DNA of 64,000 nt, from the NCBI RefSeq assembly GCF_022808855.1, contig NZ_JAKZLF010000001.1:124001-188000 (forward strand), in the 5' to 3' direction. Positions 39,620 through 51,218 of the stretch are shown in pieces (positions within the stretch are counted from its first letter, which is position 1; every line of letters begins with the position of its first letter). The notes under the pieces are model-generated. The model was not told the DNA's origin. It searched no databases and saw only the letters and a program-made list of their open reading frames with translations. This stretch comes from Anaeromyxobacter soli (lineage in GTDB: Bacteria > Myxococcota > Myxococcia > Myxococcales > Anaeromyxobacteraceae). Made by a program: the position numbers and the translations under genes.

Positions 39620-41263
<1,644 letters not shown>

Positions 41264-41325
41264 GGCGGAAATCTCGCACTCCCGCCGGTCTTGTCACCGT
41301 CACGGACGGGCCCGACAATGGACCG

Positions 41326-42183
41326 ATGCGCCTCCCGGCGGCGGTCGCCGCCCTGCTCCTCTCGCTCTCGTCGCCGCCCGCGCGCGCGCCGGGGCCGCCG
41401 CCTGCGCCGCCCGCTCCCCGCGCCGGCCACGCGGCGCCGGGGGGCTTCGGGGTGCTCCAGCCCGGGCTCGAGCTCGGCCAGTTCGCCGGCCCGGCCGCCG
41501 AGGGCCGCGCGCAGCCCATCGCGATCGTGCGCATCGACCCCGCGCGCTTCGAGCTCAGGCTGCTCAACGCCTCCGCGCCCGGCGAGGGCAGCCTGCGCAG
41601 CGCTCGCGCCTGGGCGGCGCGCGCCGGGGCGGCCGCCGCCATCAACGCGAGCATGTACCAGCAGGACTACCGCACGAGCGTCTCGCTCATGCGCACGCGG
41701 CAGCACGTGAACCAGCGGCGCGTCTCGAGGGACCGCTCGGTGCTGGCCTTCGACCCCCTCGAGCGCGGCGCCGCGCCGGTCCGGCTCATCGATCGCGACT
41801 GCGACGACCTCGAGACGGTCGCGAAGGCGTATGGGACCCTCGTGCAATCGATCCGGCTCGTCTCCTGCGACCGGCGGAACGTGTGGGCCCCGTCGCAGCG
41901 GCGCTTCTCGGCGGCGGCGATCGGCATGGACGGGAAGGGGCGCGTCCTCTTCATCCACGCGCGGACACCCTGGCCCGTCTACGACCTCGTGAACGCGCTC
42001 CTCGCGCTCCCGATCGACCTGCGCCAGGCGATGTACGTCGAGGGCGGCCCCGAGGCTCAGCTCTACGTGCGCGGCGGCGGGGGCGAGCACGAGTGGGTGG
42101 GCGGATTCGAGCACCTGCCGCAGGCCGATAACCACGAGCCCTGGCCGGTCCCCAACGTGGTGGCCGCCGTCCGTCGCCGCTGA
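41326..42183 (+). CDS. Phosphodiester-glycosidase-like (NAGPA/DUF2233) exported protein
   Basis: 285 residues with a signal peptide and an Ala/Pro linker. The body has IVRIDPARFELRLLNASAPG, AAAAINASMYQQDYRTSVSL and a late FIHARTPWPVYDLVNALLAL followed by MYVEGGPEAQLYVRG, a pattern typical of NAGPA-domain proteins that cleave sugar-phosphodiester caps or exopolysaccharide linkages. Periplasmic or surface. It lies 160 bases upstream of the GH8-GT2-PilZ gene on the same strand and may belong to the same polysaccharide unit. Substrate inferred only from family. Confidence 0.82.
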   Translation: MRLPAAVAALLLSLSSPPARAPGPPPAPPAPRAGHAAPGGFGVLQPGLELGQFAGPAAEGRAQPIAIVRIDPARFELRLLNASAPGEGSLRSARAWAARAGAAAAINASMYQQDYRTSVSLMRTRQHVNQRRVSRDRSVLAFDPLERGAAPVRLIDRDCDDLETVAKAYGTLVQSIRLVSCDRRNVWAPSQRRFSAAAIGMDGKGRVLFIHARTPWPVYDLVNALLALPIDLRQAMYVEGGPEAQLYVRGGGGEHEWVGGFEHLPQADNHEPWPVPNVVAAVRRR

Positions 42184-42343
42184 GCCCTTCGGTCCCGTCG
42201 GGGCGGCGCTCCCTAGGGGGCCAGCTCGGGCGAAGACGGGCCGATCCCGGCCCGCCACGCGTCCCCCGTTCGGCGCCTCGCTCGCCCGTGATCCGGGCGG
42301 GTGCTTCCTCGGACGATCGCCCGCCCCCACCCTCCGTGGGCGC

Positions 42344-45300
42344 ATGCGGGACCTCGCCTGGATCCTCCTCCTCCCCCTCTCCGCCCTCCTCGCCTGCGGC
42401 CACGGCGACGCGGGCCGCGCGCGCGACGCCCGGGCGCGCGAGCGCGACGAGCTCTCCGCCCTGTGGAGCTTCTATCGCTACGCGCACGTGGAGCGCGGCC
42501 GCGTCGTGGAGCGCGACGAGGGCGGCATCACGACCTCCGAGGGCCAGTCGTACGCGCTCCTCCGCGCCGTGTGGGCCGGCGATCGCGCCACCTTCGACGA
42601 GGTGTGGCGCTGGACGCGCGAGAACCTCCAGGTCCGCGACGACCGGCTCCTCGCCTGGAAGTGGAAGGACGGCGTCCAGGATCGGAACGCCGCGACCGAC
42701 GCGGATCAGGACAGCGCCCTCGCGCTCGTGCTGGCGTCGCGCCGGTTCGGCGAGGCGCGCTACCTCGAGGAGGCGAGGCGCCTCCTCGCGGACGTCTGGG
42801 CGCGCGAGGTGATCCAGGCAGGCGGGAGGTTCCTGCCCACCGGCGGGAACTGGGCGCCGCGCGAGCGCTACCCCACCATCCACGTCGCCTACCTCGCCCC
42901 CTACGCCTACGAGGTCTTCGCCGAGGTCGATCCGGCCCACCCGTGGAAGGAGCTCGTGCGCGGGAGCTACGAGGTCCTCCGCTTCCTCTACTTCGACAAG
43001 GGGCTCGTGCTGCCGCCCGAGCGGATCTGGGTGGATCCGCGGTCCGGCGCCCTGCTCCTCGAGAAGCCCGGGGGCGGCGCGCCCCAGGTCTTCGGCTACG
43101 ACGCAGTCCCGATCTTCTGGCGCGTCGCGCTCGACGCGCGCTGGTTCGGGAGGCGCGGCGAGGCGGACCTGCGCGCCCGCATGCTCGCCTTCCCGCGCGA
43201 GGCCCTCCGCGCCGAGGGGCGGCTCCGCGATCGCTACACCCCCGGCGGCCGCGCGCTGTCGGAGCTCGACGGCCAGCCGCACATGGCCTCCGTCGCGGCC
43301 CTCGCGGCGGTGGAGGACCCGGCGCTCGCCGCCGGGCTGCGCGAGGGGAAGCTCGACTCGATCTTCGAGCGGGCGCTCGCGGGCGAGGAGACCCCTTACT
43401 ACCTGCACAACTGGCTCTGGCTCGGGCGCGCGCTCGAGCTCGGCGTCACGCGCCGCTTCGACGAGCCGCTCGCGTTCCTGCTCGGGATCGACTGGAGCCC
43501 GTTCGAGGAGCGCTTCCCGCTCCTGCCGGTGCTCGCGGCCCTCGCGCTCGCGCCGCTCGCGAGGCGGTTCACCTGGGCTCGCGCGGGGCTCGTCGCGCTC
43601 GCGGTCGCCCTCTCCGCGCGCTACCTGGGCTGGCGCGCCCGCGAGACGCTCAACTTCGTCGAGCCGCTCGGGCCGGTCATCAGCCTGTCGCTCCTCGCCG
43701 CGGAGGCGTACGCGTTCTCGACCGTCCTCCTCCTCGTCGTGCAGGTCGGCGTCTCGCGGCGCCGGCGCGAGGCGCCCGCGGCGCTCGCGCCGGGCGAGAA
43801 CGCACCGTCCGTGGACGTGTTCGTCCCCATCTACTCCGAGTCGCTCGAGATCCTCGACAAGACGCTCGCCGCCTGCATGGCCATGCGCTACTCGAGGATG
43901 ACCGTCCACGTCTGCGACGACTCGCACCGCGAGTCGGTCGCGCGGCTCGCCGCCGAGCACGGCGCGCGGTACATCGCCGGGCCGAAGCGGCACGCCAAGG
44001 CGGGGAACCTCAACAACGCGCTCTCGCTCACGGCGGGAGAGCTCGTCGTGGTGTTCGACACCGACCACGTGCCGAGCGCCGCGTTCCTCGAGCGCACGGT
44101 CCCGCACTTCCGCGACGCGCGCATGGGCGTCGTCCAGACGCCCCACCACTTCTACAACCCCGACGTCTTCCAGCGCGCGTTCGGGACGGGCCCCGCCGTG
44201 CCGAACGAGGCGGACCTCTTCAACCACGCCATCCAGGCGGGCCGCGATCGCTGGGGGGGCGCGTTCTTCGTGGGCTCGGGCGCCGTGTTCCGCCGCGCCG
44301 CCATCGCCTCGGTGGGCGGCTTCAACCTGCTCTCCATCACCGAGGACATCCACACGAGCCAGAAGCTGCACGCGCGTGGCTGGCGCTCGGCGTTCGTGGA
44401 CGAGGACCTCGCCGTCGGGCTCTCCGCCGAGAACGTGCAGAGCTACCTCGTGCAGCGGCGCCGCTGGATGCTGGGGTGCCTGCAGATCTTCTTCAAGGAC
44501 AACCCGCTCCTCGAGCGCGGCCTCCCGCTCCGCCACCGCGTCGGCTACTTCGCCTCGCTCTGGTACTTCTTCTTCCCGCTGGCGCGGGTCGCCTTCTTCC
44601 TGACGCCGCTCTGGTACCTGCTCTTCCACCTCCACCCGCTCTTCGCGGACCTCCCCGTCCTCCTCGCGTACCTCGTCCCCCACCTCCTGCTCTCCACGCT
44701 CGCCGCGAACGCGCTCCTCCCCGGCTGGCCCCGGCTGCTGTGGGGGACCGTCTACGAGGCCGCGGTGGCCTTCCCGCTCGCCCGGGCGACCCTCGACCTG
44801 CTCCTGCCGAAGAGCCTCGGGTTCAAGGTGACGCCCAAGGGGATCGTGTCGGACCGCCGCCGGTTCGACGCGTCCTCCTCGCGGCTCACGATCGCTGCCG
44901 CGGCGCTCGCCGCGGTCGCGCTCGGGAAGGGTGCGTTCGAGCTCCTGGCGTTCGGGATCGAGGTCGAGGCGTACGCGTTCAACCTGTTCTGGGCCGGCGC
45001 GAACCTCGCCGCCGTGCTCGCGGCGCTCCTCGTCGCGTGGGAGCGGCCGCAGCGCCGCGAGGACGAGCGCGTGCGGCGGCGCGTGCCCGTGCGCGTCGAG
45101 GCGCCGGGGCTCGCGCTCTCCGCGGAGACGGTGGACCTCTCCCTCACCGGCGCGGCGCTCCGGCTGCCCGCGGGCGCGACCCTGCCCGCCGAGGTCGAGC
45201 TCTCGTTCGTGACGCCCGAGCCGCTGCGAGTGCGCGCCCGCGTCGCCTGGCGCGAGGAGGTGCAGGGGACGGCCCGGGCCGGCCTCGCGTTCGAGGGGCT

Positions 45301-45736
45301 CCCCGCGGAGTCGCGCCGCGCGCTCGTGCGGATCGCCTTCTCCGCCGAGGAGGCGTTCGCGGGCGCCCACGACGGGCGCACCCGCAGCCAGGTCGCGATG
45401 GCGCTCCAGCTCCTCGCCGGGATCGTCCGCGCGTTCCTGCCGCTCCGCGCGCGCCGTCGCCTGGCGCCCCGCCGCGGGACGCTGCGCGGGCTCGCGTGGG
45501 TGGGGGCCTCCCGGCGCGTCCGGGGCGTCGTGCTCGACACCTCGCCGGGGGGGCTCGGCGCGCTCTTCCTCGGGAGACCGCCGGCGGAAGCCCTGCCCGT
45601 CGTGCTGCGCGATGGCGTGCGCTGGGTGCGCGTCGCGCACGCACGCCGGGTGCTCCCGGGGCTGTGGCGCGCGGGGCTCGCCTTCCTGCCCGCCCCGCTC
45701 CCGGGCGGCGAGGCGCATGAATACCTTGCCGCCTAG
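42344..45736 (+). CDS. GH8-GT2-PilZ-PilZ fusion: cellulose-synthase-like enzyme with built-in hydrolase
   Basis: 1130 residues. A signal/lipobox-like start (LLACGH) leads to an extracytoplasmic GH8 domain (about 40-370) with TSEGQSYAL (Glu66, BcsZ-type acid) and TDADQD. Membrane helices (about 388-470) precede a processive GT2 core with VCDDSH (about 523), DTDHVP (572), FFVGSG, TEDIHTS (665) and QRRRW (704): the full D, DxD, TED, Q-x-x-RW set. More helices follow, then PilZ one (RRRVPVRVE near 911, DLSLTG) and PilZ two (RRRLAPRR near 1036, DTSPGG near 1065). Cyclic-di-GMP control of glucan synthesis is a strong inference; the product need not be cellulose. GH8 and synthase are usually separate proteins (BcsZ, BcsA). 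Confidence 0.9.
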   Translation: MRDLAWILLLPLSALLACGHGDAGRARDARARERDELSALWSFYRYAHVERGRVVERDEGGITTSEGQSYALLRAVWAGDRATFDEVWRWTRENLQVRDDRLLAWKWKDGVQDRNAATDADQDSALALVLASRRFGEARYLEEARRLLADVWAREVIQAGGRFLPTGGNWAPRERYPTIHVAYLAPYAYEVFAEVDPAHPWKELVRGSYEVLRFLYFDKGLVLPPERIWVDPRSGALLLEKPGGGAPQVFGYDAVPIFWRVALDARWFGRRGEADLRARMLAFPREALRAEGRLRDRYTPGGRALSELDGQPHMASVAALAAVEDPALAAGLREGKLDSIFERALAGEETPYYLHNWLWLGRALELGVTRRFDEPLAFLLGIDWSPFEERFPLLPVLAALALAPLARRFTWARAGLVALAVALSARYLGWRARETLNFVEPLGPVISLSLLAAEAYAFSTVLLLVVQVGVSRRRREAPAALAPGENAPSVDVFVPIYSESLEILDKTLAACMAMRYSRMTVHVCDDSHRESVARLAAEHGARYIAGPKRHAKAGNLNNALSLTAGELVVVFDTDHVPSAAFLERTVPHFRDARMGVVQTPHHFYNPDVFQRAFGTGPAVPNEADLFNHAIQAGRDRWGGAFFVGSGAVFRRAAIASVGGFNLLSITEDIHTSQKLHARGWRSAFVDEDLAVGLSAENVQSYLVQRRRWMLGCLQIFFKDNPLLERGLPLRHRVGYFASLWYFFFPLARVAFFLTPLWYLLFHLHPLFADLPVLLAYLVPHLLLSTLAANALLPGWPRLLWGTVYEAAVAFPLARATLDLLLPKSLGFKVTPKGIVSDRRRFDASSSRLTIAAAALAAVALGKGAFELLAFGIEVEAYAFNLFWAGANLAAVLAALLVAWERPQRREDERVRRRVPVRVEAPGLALSAETVDLSLTGAALRLPAGATLPAEVELSFVTPEPLRVRARVAWREEVQGTARAGLAFEGLPAESRRALVRIAFSAEEAFAGAHDGRTRSQVAMALQLLAGIVRAFLPLRARRRLAPRRGTLRGLAWVGASRRVRGVVLDTSPGGLGALFLGRPPAEALPVVLRDGVRWVRVAHARRVLPGLWRAGLAFLPAPLPGGEAHEYLAA

Positions 45737-45769
45737 AGAGCCCTCGCAAAGACCCGAGAGAGATCCAGC

Positions 45770-47848
45770 ATGAGCCCCTCGATCCGCACCGCGATCATCG
45801 CGGCCGCGCTCGCCCTCGCGCCCGCGGCGCGCGCCGGCCTCGCCGAGTCCTGGTACCTGTCGCGCGGCCGCGCGAACATGCAGATCGCGAACTACGGCGC
45901 CGCCATCGAGGCGTGGCGCAAGGCGCTCGAGCTGAACCCGAACAGCCGCGAGGCCTCCCACGAGCTGTGCAGGGCGCTGCTCCAGAACGGCGAGACGGAC
46001 CGCGCCGTCGCCGAGCTCGATCGCCACCTCGCGCGCTTCCCCGACGACTGGCAGCTCGCGTTCGAGCAAGCCCGCCTGCTGCAGTGGTCCCGGTACGCGT
46101 ACCGCTCGAAGGACGCGGTGAGGTACCTGCGCATGGGCCTCGGCCGCCGGGACGATCCCGCGCGCCGCCACGAGCTCGCGCGGCTCCTGGGGCGCGACCG
46201 CGCCACCCTCGACGAGGCGCTCGCGGAGTACCGGACGCTCCTCTCGGGCGCGCCGGAGGACGCGGCGCTGCGCGACGAGTGGCTGAAGCTCCTGCTCTGG
46301 GATCGCCGCCACCGCGACGAGGCCGTGCGCGAGCTCGAGCGACGCCTCGCCGCGAGCCCCGGGGACGAGCGCGCCGCGCGCGAGCTCGCCCGGATCACGG
46401 CCGAGGATCCGCGCCGGGCGGGAGAGGCGGCCGGGCGCTACGCGGCGCTCCTCGAGCGCCACCCCGACGATCCCGATCTGCGGCTCGGCCGCGCCCGCGC
46501 GCTCGCCCGCGCGGGGCGGCGCGACGAGGCGCGCGGCGAGTACGCGCGCGCGCTCGCGCTCCGGCCCTCCCCCGAGACGAGGCTCGAGTACGCCGAGGTG
46601 CTCGCTGCCGATCCCGCCTCGGCCGACGCCGCCCGCCGCGAGTACGAGGCGGTCCTGCGCGAGCGGCCGCGCTCGCGGCGCGCCCGGGTCGGCCTCGCTC
46701 GGGTCCTCGGTGCGCGCCGGGAGACGAGCAAGGACGCCATCGCGGTCTACGAGACCGTGCTCGCCGAGGCGCCGAACGACGCGGAGGCGCACCGCGGCCT
46801 CGCGCACGCCTTCGCCTGGAACGGCGACGCCGACCGCGCCCTCGCGCACGGGGAGCTCGCCGAGCGGTACGGCCCGGCGCGCCCGGACGTCGCCGCGCTG
46901 GAGCGCTCGCTCCGCGTGGGGCGCGAGCCGGCCGCGGGCGGCGGCGCGCGGGTGCTCGCGCAGCCGGGCGGCGCGAGGCTCTCGCGGGTGGGCGCCTTCG
47001 TGTCCGGCGCCGCGGAGCCGACGCCATTCACCTCGAGCGCCGTCGAGGCGGGGTTCGCCGTCGCGCGCGGGGAGGCGGGCGCCGAGGCCTCGGGGGCCGA
47101 CGTGAGGGTGCAGGGCGAGTGGCGCCCGTCGCCGGGGACGCGGCTCGAGCTGCGGGGCGCGCTCGACGGCGTGCGCCGCGGGGCCGCCGGACTGTCGGGC
47201 GGCGTGGCCCTCCAGCGCGCCACCGAGGACCGGCGGGCCTCGCTGGAGCTCCGGCGCGCCTCGCGCCTCGACTCCTTCCGCGCCTACGCCGGCGAGGGCG
47301 CCGGCGACGCGCGCGTGGGGGCGGCGAGCGACAACCTCGTGGAGCTTCGCCTGGCAGGCGGCAGCGCCACGCGGGTCGAGCTCACCGCGCGCGCGGGATC
47401 CATCTCCGCCGAGCGGATCTCGCCGGTCTTCGCGGCGGGCCTGGGCGCCCGCGTCGATCGGGCGCTCACGCGAGCCCGCGGGTTCGCGATCGCGGCGGGC
47501 GTCTCCGCGGACGCCCTCCACCACGCCCGCGATCTCTCCGCGACGAGCGACCCGCTGGACGCCGCTCCGGGCGTGTTCTCGCCGCCGCTCTTCGTCTCGG
47601 CCTCGCCACGCCTGTCCGTGACCCGCGAGGCGGGCGCGCGCGGCTGGCTCTCGCTCGACGCCGGGCCCGCGCTGCAGGTCGTGGGCGGCGCGGGAGGTGG
47701 AGTCCGCGCCGGCGGCGACGCCCGGCTCGCGTTCGCGCAGCGCGTCGGCCAGCGGCTCCGGGTCGGCGGCGAGGCGCGCGCGGAGCGGGTGGCGGACGTG
47801 TACACGCGGCTCGAGGCGGCGCTCACCGCGTCGCTGCTCTTCCCCTGA
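45770..47848 (+). CDS. BcsC-like TPR periplasmic/outer-membrane export protein
   Basis: 692 residues. A signal peptide (to about ARAG, 24) precedes roughly ten TPR-like repeats (about 28-385, starting with ANYGAAIEAWRKALELNPNS). The C-terminal 300 residues are Gly/Ala/Arg-rich with alternating hydrophobics and end in TASLLFP, a terminal aromatic signal for an outer-membrane beta-barrel. This is the BcsC/AlgK-AlgE-like plan for guiding a polymer to and across the outer membrane. It begins 33 bases after the synthase gene and 10 bases before the pseudokinase gene. Confidence 0.82.
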   Translation: MSPSIRTAIIAAALALAPAARAGLAESWYLSRGRANMQIANYGAAIEAWRKALELNPNSREASHELCRALLQNGETDRAVAELDRHLARFPDDWQLAFEQARLLQWSRYAYRSKDAVRYLRMGLGRRDDPARRHELARLLGRDRATLDEALAEYRTLLSGAPEDAALRDEWLKLLLWDRRHRDEAVRELERRLAASPGDERAARELARITAEDPRRAGEAAGRYAALLERHPDDPDLRLGRARALARAGRRDEARGEYARALALRPSPETRLEYAEVLAADPASADAARREYEAVLRERPRSRRARVGLARVLGARRETSKDAIAVYETVLAEAPNDAEAHRGLAHAFAWNGDADRALAHGELAERYGPARPDVAALERSLRVGREPAAGGGARVLAQPGGARLSRVGAFVSGAAEPTPFTSSAVEAGFAVARGEAGAEASGADVRVQGEWRPSPGTRLELRGALDGVRRGAAGLSGGVALQRATEDRRASLELRRASRLDSFRAYAGEGAGDARVGAASDNLVELRLAGGSATRVELTARAGSISAERISPVFAAGLGARVDRALTRARGFAIAAGVSADALHHARDLSATSDPLDAAPGVFSPPLFVSASPRLSVTREAGARGWLSLDAGPALQVVGGAGGGVRAGGDARLAFAQRVGQRLRVGGEARAERVADVYTRLEAALTASLLFP

Positions 47849-47858
47849 GCGGCCGGCC

Positions 47859-49466
47859 ATGACTCCGGCGCGCGAGGCGATCACGGCGAGCGGGGGCGCG
47901 GCGGCGCGAACCCTGCCCATGCCCGGCCACGCCCTCGTCTCGGTGCTCCGCCCCGGCCGGACGCTGCTCGTGCGGGCGGAGGCGGCCGGGACGCTCGCCG
48001 TGCTCCGCCGGGCGGGCGTCGGACGAGGAGAGCTCGAGCGCCGGGCGCGCGCCTGCGCCGGCGCCTCGGCGGCCGTGCTGGAGCACGAGGGCGCCGCACA
48101 CCTCCTCCGCCCGTTCGTGCCGGGCCGGACGCTCACCGAGGTGCTCGCCGCCCCGCCGCCGGTCGCCGCGGCTCTCGACCTCGCCGGCGCGCTCGCCCGC
48201 GCCGTCCTCGTTCTGCACGGGCGCGGCCGCGTGCACGGTCGGTTGCACCCGGGCAACGTCGTCGTCGCGGCGGACGGGTCCGTGACGCTCGTCGACGCCG
48301 AGCTGCCGTTCCACCCCGATCCCGCCGATCCCGCCGCCGCCTCCGCCCTCGGCTTCGCAGCCCCCGAGCTCCTCCGCGGCGGCGCGCCGTCCCGCGGCGG
48401 AGACGCGTTCGCGCTCGCCGCGATGATCTACGCGCTGCTCACCCGTCGTCCGCCCTTCCCGGCCGAGACGCCGCTCGAGGCCATCCGCCGCGTGCTCCAC
48501 GAGGAGCCGGTCCCGCTCGCCGTGCTTCGCCCCGATCTTCCCGCCGGGCTCGCCGCGGCGGTCACCCGCGGGCTCTCCCGGCGCGCGTGGAGACGGACGA
48601 CCGCGGCGCAGCTCGCCGAGGAGCTCCGCGTCGTGCTGGGCAGCGCGAGGCTCGGGGAGCCGACCGCGAGCGCGGCCTCGCTCCCGGCGGCGGCTGCGGC
48701 CGCGCAGACGACGGGGCTGCACACCTCGACCTCGACCTCGACCGCGACCGCGACCGCGACCGCGACTGCGACCCGGACCCCGACCCCGACCCTGACCCCG
48801 ACCCCGACCCTGACCCCGACCCCGACCCTGACCCCGACCCCGACCCTGACCGCGACCGCGACCCCGACCCCATCTCCGACCCCCGCCCATCGCCCCTTCC
48901 CGCCCGCCATCCTCGTCGCGCTCACCCGGGCGCCGGGCCTCGCTCGCGCTTTCGTCGCCTCTCCACGGCGCCTCACGCTCCTCGCCCTCCCCGCCCTCGC
49001 GCTCGCGGCGCTGTACCTGCCCCGGAGCGAGGCGGCGCTCGCAGGCGACGTCGCATCGCTCCTGAGGAGCGGCCGGCTCGCGGACGCGCGCGCCCGGGTC
49101 GACCAGGCCGCGAGGAGCCGGCCGGGCGATCCGCTCGTCGAGAAGCTCCGCGGCGACGTCGCGTGCGCCCGCGGCGCGAGCGGTGAGTGCCTGCGGCGCT
49201 ACCGCGTCGCGCTCGCCGCCCGCCCGGCGCTGCGCGAGGACGCGGCGCTCCGCGAGAACGCCCGGAAGCTCCTCGCCGGCGCCCAGAGCTGCGGCTCGCG
49301 CCGCGCGGCGGCGGAGCTCCTCGGCGAGCTGCGCGACCCGGCGGCGCTCCCCGCGCTCGAGTCGGCGCGGCGCGCCGGCGGGCTCTTCTCCTGGTTCTGC
49401 ACGGGCGACGCGATCGATCGCGCCATCCTGGCGACGCGACAGACGGAGCGGACCGCCGCGGACTGA
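47859..49466 (+). CDS. Ser/Thr kinase-fold pseudokinase with Thr-Pro repeats, one helix and TPR-like tail
   Basis: 535 residues. A eukaryotic-type kinase fold spans about 20-265. The catalytic loop reads HGRLHPGN where HRDLKPEN is expected, so the proton-acceptor Asp is missing; the DFG position reads VDAEL; no clear VAIK Lys or glycine loop is visible. APELLRGG and DAFALAAMIYALLT keep the C-lobe. A Thr-rich linker (289-345) holds TPTPTL four times. A membrane helix follows (about 371-388), then about 145 residues of TPR-like helices that should be periplasmic. Third gene of the polysaccharide operon; probably a regulatory scaffold. Confidence 0.75.
   Translation: MTPAREAITASGGAAARTLPMPGHALVSVLRPGRTLLVRAEAAGTLAVLRRAGVGRGELERRARACAGASAAVLEHEGAAHLLRPFVPGRTLTEVLAAPPPVAAALDLAGALARAVLVLHGRGRVHGRLHPGNVVVAADGSVTLVDAELPFHPDPADPAAASALGFAAPELLRGGAPSRGGDAFALAAMIYALLTRRPPFPAETPLEAIRRVLHEEPVPLAVLRPDLPAGLAAAVTRGLSRRAWRRTTAAQLAEELRVVLGSARLGEPTASAASLPAAAAAAQTTGLHTSTSTSTATATATATATRTPTPTLTPTPTLTPTPTLTPTPTLTATATPTPSPTPAHRPFPPAILVALTRAPGLARAFVASPRRLTLLALPALALAALYLPRSEAALAGDVASLLRSGRLADARARVDQAARSRPGDPLVEKLRGDVACARGASGECLRRYRVALAARPALREDAALRENARKLLAGAQSCGSRRAAAELLGELRDPAALPALESARRAGGLFSWFCTGDAIDRAILATRQTERTAAD
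48777..48848. repeat. 18-base tandem repeat, four units, in the pseudokinase gene
   Basis: Four near-identical units with consensus ACCCCGACCCCGACCCTG encode TPTPTL, preceded by a six-base ACCTCG/ACCGCG series (48723-48770) coding for TSTSTS and TATATA. The tract may expand or contract by slippage in units that keep the reading frame. Confidence 0.9.
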
Positions 49467-49472
49467 GCACGG

Positions 49473-51218
49473 CTAGGCATATCCGTGCACGAGCCGCTGC
49501 TCCTCGCGGTACGGGTAGATGTCCACGATCTCCCCCTCCCGGATCCGCTCCTGGATGCCGCGCCAGTAGCGCCCGGTGAGCAGGTCCCCGTGCGCGTGGA
49601 GGAAGACCTCGCGCAGCCGCCCGGTCAGGCCGAGGAAGGGGAGCAGCTCCTCGGGGAAGATGTCGTTCTCCCCCACGTAGAACCAGGGCTCCCCGCTCGT
49701 CTCCTCGTCGTCGCCCGAGGCGGTGGGCAGGTCGCGGAACACGCAGTCCGTGACCCGCGTGAGCTCGTCGTAGTCGTAGAAGATCACGCGCCCGTGCCGC
49801 GTCACGCCGAAGTTCTTGAGGAGCAGGTCGCCCGGGAAGGTGTTCGTCGCGGAGAGATCCTTGAGCGCGCGGCCGAAGTCGAGCACCGCCTGCCGCGCGG
49901 TCCACTCGTCCGCCTCGCGGATGAACAGGTTGAGCGGCGTCACGCGCCGCTCCACGTAGAGGTGCCGCACGGCGACCTCGCGCGGCCCGATCTCCACGCT
50001 CCCGGCGCACTCCTCCCGGAGCTCGCGCAGCACCTCGGGCGAGAAGCGGTCCGCCGGGAACGCGAGGTGCTCGTACTCCTGCGCGTCCACCAGCCGGCCG
50101 GCGCGGTCGTGGCGGAAGACGTGCCGGTACTTGTCCATGACCTCGCGGCGCGTCGTCTGCTTGGGCGGCTTGAACTCGTCCTTGATGACCTTGAAGACGA
50201 CGTCGAGCCCCGGGATCGTGAACACGCTCATCACGAGCCCCTTGTCGCCGCGCGCCGGCACGAACGACTCGCCGGTGGCGGCGATGTGGCGCGCGATCTC
50301 CCGGTACAGCTCGGTCTTGCCGTGCTTGTTGAAGCCGAGCGCGATGTAGAGCTCCGACACCCGCTTCTGCGGGATGAGCGTGGAGAGGAACGCCACCAGC
50401 TCGCGCGGTCGCTCCACCTCCACGTGGAAGTACGAGCGCGTGAAGCTGAACACGATCGAGACGTCCTCGGCGGTGAGGAGGATGGCGTCGAGGACCACGC
50501 CGCCCGCGCCATGGACCAGGGCCAGGACGAGCGGGGTCGTGAACCGCCCGCGCCGGAGCCGCCCGACGAGGTAGGCGCCCTTCCCGCGGTAGAAGACCGA
50601 CGTCACCAGCTCGACCGTCTCGATCGGCTGGCCGTCGTCGAGCTCGCGCAGGTGCGCGTCGAGCTCGACCGCCGCGATGCGCACGTCGCGCTCGAGGTCC
50701 TCGTAGGGGACCGCGAAGGCGTAGGCGCGGAGGACGGTGCGGAGGAGCGCCTCGGTCGTGACCTCGCGCCGGAAGCTCCGATGAACGGGCACGCCGCCCT
50801 CGCGGACCGCCGGACCGTCGGCCGCCAGGAACTCGATGGCGGGATCCACGCCCACCGTGACGAACACACGCCGGGTGACGGAGTTGAAGAACGACTGCGC
50901 GATCTCCCGGTCCGGCCGCGCCGCCACCCGCGCCTCGTAGAGCTCCTTCATGCTCCGCCAGAGGGGGTGATCGTGCGCCGCCGCGCCGAGCTCGGCGCGC
51001 ACCGTGCCGACGCAGGCGTTCACGAGCCGATCGCGGAGATCCAGCCGCTCACGCGCGTCGGCCTGGCCGCCGGCCCAGTCCTTCGCCTCGAACCGGCCGC
51101 GCGCCCGGGCGGTGATGCGCACCCGCTCGTCCTGATATGCCTCGAAGCTCGCCGCGATGGCGGCGGCGCCGGCTGCGGCGAGGGCGCCCGTGGTGGCGAG
51201 TTCGTCCGGCTGCGCCAT
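49473..51218 (-). CDS. aceK: Isocitrate dehydrogenase kinase/phosphatase
   Basis: 581 residues from the ATG at 51218, matching AceK length. SFFNSVTRRVFVTVGVDP, the ATP-loop region ARGDKGLVMSVFTIPGLDVV followed by FKVIKDEFKPPKQTTR, DLLLKNFGVTRHGRVIFYDYDE and WFYVGENDIFPEE are family signatures. AceK phosphorylates and dephosphorylates isocitrate dehydrogenase to steer carbon into the glyoxylate bypass. No aceA/aceB gene is adjacent. It is convergent with the pseudokinase gene (six bases between stops). Confidence 0.97.
   Translation of the reverse strand: MAQPDELATTGALAAAGAAAIAASFEAYQDERVRITARARGRFEAKDWAGGQADARERLDLRDRLVNACVGTVRAELGAAAHDHPLWRSMKELYEARVAARPDREIAQSFFNSVTRRVFVTVGVDPAIEFLAADGPAVREGGVPVHRSFRREVTTEALLRTVLRAYAFAVPYEDLERDVRIAAVELDAHLRELDDGQPIETVELVTSVFYRGKGAYLVGRLRRGRFTTPLVLALVHGAGGVVLDAILLTAEDVSIVFSFTRSYFHVEVERPRELVAFLSTLIPQKRVSELYIALGFNKHGKTELYREIARHIAATGESFVPARGDKGLVMSVFTIPGLDVVFKVIKDEFKPPKQTTRREVMDKYRHVFRHDRAGRLVDAQEYEHLAFPADRFSPEVLRELREECAGSVEIGPREVAVRHLYVERRVTPLNLFIREADEWTARQAVLDFGRALKDLSATNTFPGDLLLKNFGVTRHGRVIFYDYDELTRVTDCVFRDLPTASGDDEETSGEPWFYVGENDIFPEELLPFLGLTGRLREVFLHAHGDLLTGRYWRGIQERIREGEIVDIYPYREEQRLVHGYA

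Follow-up and report, generated by a model that had tools for sequence, protein, structure and literature searches.

Judged by its sequence, a gene lying directly 3' of bcsC in a cellulose-type operon of Anaeromyxobacter soli encodes a dead kinase, in which a degenerate kinase fold is followed by a linker, a single putative membrane helix and a helical, probably periplasmic tail. We give about even credence to the proposal that this single-pass pseudokinase is a non-enzymatic subunit of a secretion machine for cellulose (or a cellulose-like β-glucan) devoid of BcsB, in which it would tie the synthase to BcsC. The window, i.e., the whole stretch of DNA that was analyzed, comprises 64,000 nucleotides; its genome is designated G000 and the other genomes compared are numbered accordingly.

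Table 1. Features of the operon and of the pseudokinase gene; positions are those of the window.
Feature	Position	Strand	Remarks
Phosphodiester glycosidase-like gene (NAGPA, PF09992)	41326..42183	+	Upstream; may be the gene with which the operon begins
GH8-BcsA-PilZ fusion	42344..45736	+	1130 aa; lipobox-like N-terminus; assigned by profile matches
BcsC-like TPR protein	45770..47848	+	692 aa; C-terminal barrel-like region; resembles BcsC/PgaA
Bitopic pseudokinase gene	47859..49466	+	ATG at 47859, stop ending at 49466; 535 aa
N-lobe remnant, residues 20-85	47916..48113	+	Glycine loop and β3 Lys unrecognizable
Kinase C-lobe, residues 86-257	48114..48629	+	A168-P169-E170, D182 and R246 kept in 9/9 orthologues
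HGRLHPGN, degenerate catalytic loop, residues 126-133	48234..48257	+	R128 in place of the catalytic Asp
D146-A147-E148 at the DFG position	48294..48302	+	Asp kept; Phe and Gly gone
Thr/Pro/Ser-rich linker, residues 258-370	48630..48968	+	Length varies; evolution near-neutral
Hexanucleotide array ACCCCG	48723..48883	+	26.8 copies; codes for the Thr/Pro linker
Putative transmembrane helix, residues 372-388	48972..49022	+	Based on hydropathy only
C-terminal TPR/HEAT-like domain	49023..49463	+	Cys 436, 444, 478 and 514; predicted periplasmic

The Operon and the Architecture of the Pseudokinase

In the synthase, profile searches identify GH8 (E 1.1e-33) and PilZ (E 1.5e-17) domains, together with a match to the GT2/CelA model TIGR03030 (519.7 bits, E 9.9e-156) that falls under the equivalog cut-off of 699.1; the TPR protein matches the BcsC model (E 7.9e-11). 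As far as a Bcs operon is concerned, a BcsA-type synthase with PilZ and a BcsC-type channel are found and BcsB is not, the profile PF03170 giving no match in the window genome or in the pseudokinase protein. The GH8 part of the fusion amounts to a BcsZ-type cellulase placed at the N-terminus of BcsA, and would be periplasmic if the LLAC lipobox-like N-terminus is real; the available sections of an operon survey (PMC7112194) describe BcsZ-BcsC and BcsA-BcsB fusions in Zymomonas and contain no GH8-BcsA fusion.

The fusion gene and bcsC are separated by 33 bases, bcsC and the pseudokinase gene by 10; in three related genomes (G001, G002, G003) the pseudokinase starts at the end of bcsC, and it lies directly 3' of bcsC in all seven loci of the same genus for which the downstream DNA is available (the window, G001-G005 and G008). 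A sigma-70-like site at 41291-41319, the only one within 41200-49700 (0.1 expected), is located just 5' of the phosphodiester glycosidase-like gene, and a gene for AceK (isocitrate dehydrogenase kinase/phosphatase; 49479-51218, minus strand) is convergent with the pseudokinase gene.

Within the pseudokinase, Pfam recognizes a Pkinase domain (PF00069) at residues 76-215 (E 1e-8; 35.4 bits, cut-off 31.7), a fold also matched by the eight orthologues aligned (8/8, E up to 0.01). The best match of known structure found by sequence is PknB (E 9.6e-15, residues 81-273); since this alignment begins at residue 81, the N-lobe goes unrecognized. Sequence similar to the linker-coding part of the gene occurs at many other places in the genome. 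An open reading frame with a kinase fold, one membrane helix and a helical domain, set in a polysaccharide operon, had been proposed in an earlier, sequence-only reading of this DNA, and this layout is borne out in outline, the operon being of the cellulose type and the periplasmic side of the helical domain being probable.

Loss of the Catalytic Residues

According to the PknB alignment, the HRD motif corresponds to H126-G127-R128, the Mg-binding Asn to N133, the DFG motif to D146-A147-E148 and the APE motif to A168-P169-E170. The sequence-only reading was right that the loop HGRLHPGN has no catalytic Asp, an Arg standing at position 128; its further claim that VDAEL replaces DFG holds for the Phe and the Gly, which are changed, and fails for the metal-binding Asp, retained as D146. 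Among the nine orthologues position 128 is Arg in five, Ala in three and Gly in one, and never Asp. An N-lobe is absent or unrecognizable in four of them (G001, G002, G003 and G009), and a Lys at the aligned β3 column is found in G110 alone; conventional ATP binding is not expected of the four copies lacking the N-lobe, so that a function common to all nine should not need ATP.

That the kinase fold nevertheless works as an atypical active enzyme, used for phosphorylation or for some other transfer, is very improbable: the window copy does keep D146 and N133, but these metal-binding positions are conserved in only 5/9 and 6/9 orthologues, respectively, four copies have no recognizable ATP-binding N-lobe, and in the window copy itself the glycine loop and the β3 Lys were sought and neither was recognizable. 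Phosphotransfer, which had been called unlikely from the sequence, can be rated very unlikely, the catalytic Asp being missing in 9/9 orthologues.

A different picture is given by A168, P169, E170, D182 and R246, identical in all nine orthologues, which we take to be the APE Glu, the helix-F Asp and the helix-I Arg with their structural roles in kinases; as read from the alignment, the C-lobe is kept for its fold and not for catalysis. Within the window genome the loss is also peculiar to this gene. When the 80 contigs (5.3 Mb) were searched for Pkinase, 24 matches corresponding to 23 loci were obtained, one locus being split, and when the DNA of the other 22 loci was read, the catalytic Asp was present in every one: 21 carry H(R/C/L)D and, after it, DFG or DLG; the remaining one, UbiB-type by sequence reading, has HGDPHPGN and DFG. 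Of the 23 kinase-family loci, the pseudokinase alone is without this residue.

Orthologues with intact HRD and DFG motifs, the finding by which this copy would have appeared to be merely decaying, do not occur among the nine (0/9), and the C-lobe and the tail are under purifying selection (see below). Simple gene decay as the whole story is excluded, the lost Asp being common to 9/9 orthologues under such constraint; a sequencing error at the catalytic motif is excluded on the same two grounds. As to classification, the available sections of a review on bacterial pseudokinases (PMC12599244) define the GLW pseudokinases by the replacement of HRD by GLW, and the nine proteins carry HGR, HGA or HGG, not GLW, at this position.

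Selection on the Different Parts of the Protein

Selection was measured as dN/dS between pairs of orthologues by the Nei-Gojobori method. For the four pairs of closest relatives (G000-G008, G000-G005, G008-G005 and G001-G002) the ratio is 0.16-0.24 for the tail, 0.28-0.42 for the C-lobe, 0.20-0.86 for the N-lobe region and 0.51-1.15 for the linker, to be compared with 0.12-0.19 for GH8-BcsA and 0.12-0.21 for the TPR region of BcsC. Three more distant pairs gave 0.55-0.58 for the tail, 0.49-0.69 for the C-lobe, 1.00-1.68 for the linker and 0.36-0.41 for BcsA, higher values that probably reflect saturation of synonymous sites in GC-rich DNA, with dS underestimated. Six of the seven pairs show the weakest constraint in the linker. 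The ratio of the tail is likewise below that of the C-lobe in six pairs, the exception being G000-G004 (tail 0.58, C-lobe 0.49). From these ratios the C-lobe seems to be still selected to fold.

Identity of the orthologues to the window copy is 51-90% in the tail, as against 41-81% over the whole protein; of the two halves it is the tail, rather than the kinase, that is better conserved. This difference is what would be expected if the membrane helix and the periplasmic tail alone did the work and the kinase half were the shrinking relic of a receptor kinase; the loss of the N-lobe in 4/9 copies and the tail borne by an intact kinase of a different lineage point in the same direction. A vestigial kinase on a useful tail is, however, quite unlikely in view of the C-lobe, whose close-pair ratios are those given above, whose APE Glu, helix-F Asp and helix-I Arg are invariant in 9/9 and which has been lost in none of the nine genomes.

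Distribution of the Pseudokinase and Absence of BcsB

The set of nine orthologues consists of the window copy and those of G001-G005, G008, G009 and G110. A search at the family level (24 genomes) found the gene in G001-G005 and G008, which belong to the same genus as the window; in G009, a member of another genus, comparison of neighborhoods showed it about 1.8 kb past bcsC on the opposite strand, and a search of 195 Myxococcota genomes with the tail profile added G110, from another family, in which the gene is convergent and adjoins bcsC. A CotH-type kinase gene is found near the latter copy (L075:8914-10773, minus strand). In all, the tail profile matched 15 genomes; inspection of the ORFs showed the matches in six of them (G024, G026, G027, G029, G031 and G189) to be non-orthologous, and these were set aside. 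A scan of contigs from other genomes gave three loci: an orthologue of Anaeromyxobacter terrae on NZ_JALCYY010000051.1 (L039), whose 552-aa protein is the same as that of G008, and two matches to the kinase part (L040 and L041). On plasmids, 13 records match the pseudokinase, the eight matches listed covering the kinase part only and none reaching 80%; the GH8 part matches 135 records, none over 80% coverage.

A BcsA-type match is present in 21 of the 195 Myxococcota genomes, twelve of them with the GH8 part covered (G000-G009, G110 and G189) and nine with the BcsA part only (G011, G045-G048 and G050-G053). The pseudokinase occurs in 9/12 of the fusion genomes and in none of the 183 others. 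BcsB was found in ten of the 195 genomes, namely the nine with ordinary BcsA plus a weak match in G181, which makes 0/12 for the fusion genomes versus 9/9 for the ordinary ones (Fisher p 3.4e-6, the genomes not being independent). A tree of the BcsA core, built on 21 rows (the 12 fusions and 9 others from 8 genomes, G052 being omitted as it is in two fragments), splits the fusions from the other group with support 100/100 and long branches. The 12-versus-9 contrast in BcsB and the co-occurrence of fusion and pseudokinase are not independent pieces of evidence, because both derive from one evolutionary split. No pseudokinase match was seen at the four BcsB-type loci examined (L102-L105).

Three fusion genomes are without the pseudokinase (G006, G007 and G189). 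In the first two the contigs end inside BcsA and BcsC is nowhere in the genome, so that the place of the pseudokinase is unassembled; G189 is the sole resolved case. Here no stop separates the GH8-BcsA-PilZ frame from the TPR-barrel of BcsC, the two forming one ORF of 1661 aa (L099:7918-12903, minus strand); no pseudokinase is found beside this fusion, and the tail-profile match belongs to a cyclase-like gene elsewhere in the genome. The inner-membrane synthase and the outer-membrane channel of this organism would be one translation product.

Since the GH8 fusion is common to all twelve BcsA proteins from genomes without BcsB, even to that of G189, which has no pseudokinase beside it, it may be asked whether the GH8 domain took over from BcsB, the pseudokinase being a peripheral accessory. 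This is possible but doubtful, given that a membrane helix like that of BcsB is not supplied by GH8 and that in E. coli no direct interaction between BcsZ and BcsC was detected, according to the available sections of PMC11379886. In the same organism a ring of BcsB tethers BcsC via its first TPR (PMC11379886, available sections), and BcsB is essential for catalysis in the systems studied, for which only its C-terminal membrane anchor and amphipathic helix are needed (PMC6740014, available sections). A system devoid of BcsB must solve the tethering of BcsC and the support of catalysis otherwise. The possible coupling of synthase state to the export channel suggested in the sequence-only reading would appear better founded given the lack of BcsB in the 12 fusion genomes and the BcsB-BcsC tether of E. 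coli.

The Membrane Helix and the Tail

A 17-residue hydrophobic stretch has a mean hydropathy of 2.01 at best in the window copy and of 2.01-2.60 at the corresponding alignment position across all nine proteins; in a 19-residue scan (cut-off 1.6) the window copy falls under the threshold and the seven orthologues scanned are all over it. This pattern supports a single membrane helix, which, given a cytosolic kinase, would place the tail in the periplasm. As for the cysteines of the tail, C478 and C514 are present in 9/9 orthologues, while C436 and C444 are both kept in 8/9 and both lost in G003; such joint retention or loss is expected of a disulfide formed outside the cytosol and supports the periplasmic placement.

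The tail had been described from the sequence as TPR-like, a view that stands insofar as its model resembles TPR solenoids and has to be amended in that Pfam makes it more HEAT-like than TPR-like: with E up to 0.1, HEAT_2 matches 8/8 of the orthologues scanned, HEAT_PBS 7/8 and TPR 2/8. In the window tail both HEAT matches are below the cut-off, with a weak HEAT_PBS at residues 481-503. Structure prediction of the tail from two sequences gave a best model with pLDDT 87.7 and four others with 52-56, all of them helical; the structural neighbors of this model are generic TPR and HEAT/alphaRep repeats, the best VIA-align Z being 11.2 (the repeat level of the tool is about 13), Foldseek gave no match at E up to 0.001, and a search of PDB sequences with the tail profile found weak alphaRep and TPR matches only. 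Prediction of the full-length protein from two sequences was unusable (pLDDT 39.5).

The tail is also carried by proteins of other Myxococcota: an intact Ser/Thr kinase with a membrane helix (L078; VHRDLKPAN and LDFG) and, at their C-terminus, five cyclase-like membrane proteins (L076, L077, L079, L080 and L081), whose adenylate/guanylate-cyclase-like start was judged by eye from the sequence. The tail is, on account of its presence on these six proteins, a portable receptor module, and its being an Anaeromyxobacter invention is excluded. In these receptors the module has two conserved Cys, and Pfam gave weak repeat matches only. A receptor kinase of the L078 type is the probable ancestor of the pseudokinase, the direction of this descent being our reading of the sequences.

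The receptor-like look of the homologous proteins would also fit a sensor-regulator, whose tail senses either the envelope or the polymer and whose pseudokinase relays this state, through conformation rather than phosphorylation, to the synthase or its PilZ region. We consider this unlikely, since the synthase has a PilZ domain of its own, and hence a probable direct c-di-GMP input, and since an N-lobe unrecognizable in 4/9 copies removes most of the conformational switch of a kinase.

Proposed Role in Glucan Secretion

Returning to the non-enzymatic connector between synthase and channel, the cytosolic C-lobe would provide a nucleotide-independent docking surface close to the synthase, the Thr/Pro linker a flexible tether, and the membrane helix would sit beside BcsA; the periplasmic TPR/HEAT-like tail would grip the N-terminal TPRs of BcsC, and the growing glucan would pass through this arrangement from BcsA to the outer-membrane channel. 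The pseudokinase would then act like YukC/EssB of type VII secretion without belonging to that family. This role is favored because the protein is a conserved, single-pass one of a BcsB-less operon and has a YukC/EssB-like layout. The dead kinase, the hydrophobic stretch, the conserved tail, the operon context, the absence of BcsB and the co-occurrence with the fusion are read in the DNA; what the proposal adds is the location of the tail in the periplasm, the partners that are bound and the tethering.

In favor of such a connector are the loss of the catalytic Asp and the retention of the fold residues in 9/9, the constraint on tail and C-lobe, the adjacency to bcsC in 7/7, the co-occurrence with the fusion, the absence of BcsB from all twelve fusion genomes and the paired cysteines of the tail. 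Against it stand the copies of G009 and G110, on the opposite strand and convergent to the operon, the organism that manages without the pseudokinase (G189), the fast divergence of the kinase half, the near-neutral linker, the higher ratios of the more distant pairs and the single evolutionary split behind the genome counts. The connector, sensor-regulator, relic and GH8 readings overlap in part, and the likelihoods attached to them need not sum to one. A broader and tentative scenario is that in one Myxococcota clade a captured dead receptor kinase replaced BcsB, its helix stabilizing BcsA and its tail holding BcsC, with a synthase that carries its own cellulase; the connector would be gone where synthase and channel became fused, as in G189.

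Relation to Known Systems

Bacterial pseudokinases are largely uncharacterized. The available sections of the review PMC12599244 name a structural part in protein secretion (EssB/YukC) and the control of peptidoglycan synthesis (MviN) and contain no cellulose, TPR or myxo- terms. An open-access literature search, covering titles and the starts of abstracts, found no pseudokinase in a cellulose operon and no GH8-BcsA fusion. Both secretion machines with a dead kinase (YukC/EssB) and synthases lacking BcsB (cyanobacteria) are already known, and their combination in a GH8-BcsA clade was not found in the literature searched. If true, the presence of a dead kinase as a permanent component of polysaccharide export would broaden the structural role of pseudokinases; the data also point to a natural cellulose synthase without BcsB, a system in which the actual contribution of BcsB can be addressed directly.

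The closest parallel in layout is YukC, composed of a pseudokinase, a transmembrane helix and an all-alpha extracellular domain, which organizes type VIIb secretion (PMC9600267, available sections). With YukC/EssB (PMC9600267 and PMC12599244, available sections) the protein shares a cytosolic pseudokinase, one membrane helix, an all-helical outer domain and, as proposed here, the position of an export-machine subunit, the membrane side being in our case a prediction. It differs in its long Thr/Pro linker, in its TPR/HEAT-like tail and in the machine concerned, a Gram-negative one for glucan; the outer domain of YukC is described in the same sources as unlike other domains of known function, and the EssB/YukC family is not among the Pfam matches of the window protein at E up to 1. 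BcsB, too, has a single membrane helix and a periplasmic domain and is encoded with bcsA and bcsC, the tethering of BcsC being the proposed common task, but there is no sequence similarity, the periplasmic part is helical here and jellyroll/flavodoxin-like in BcsB, and the pseudokinase has a large cytosolic domain.

Cyanobacterial XcsA, a BcsA-type synthase with PilZ and no BcsB, is likewise accompanied by another membrane protein thought to stand in, the HlyD-like XcsB (PMC12430437, available sections); there, however, the HlyD-like adaptor works with TolC, here a pseudokinase with BcsC. MviN (ActPs3) of mycobacteria is a further case of a dead kinase domain in a membrane protein tied to the synthesis of an envelope polymer (PMC12599244, available sections), in which the kinase domain occupies residues 710-942 of a larger transmembrane protein and belongs to an actinobacterial family with a motif pattern of its own. 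Finally, L078 resembles the pseudokinase in having a kinase, a membrane helix and a homologous tail with the equivalents of C478 and C514, and differs from it in its intact VHRDLKPAN and DFG motifs, encoded on a contig of 6.8 kb.
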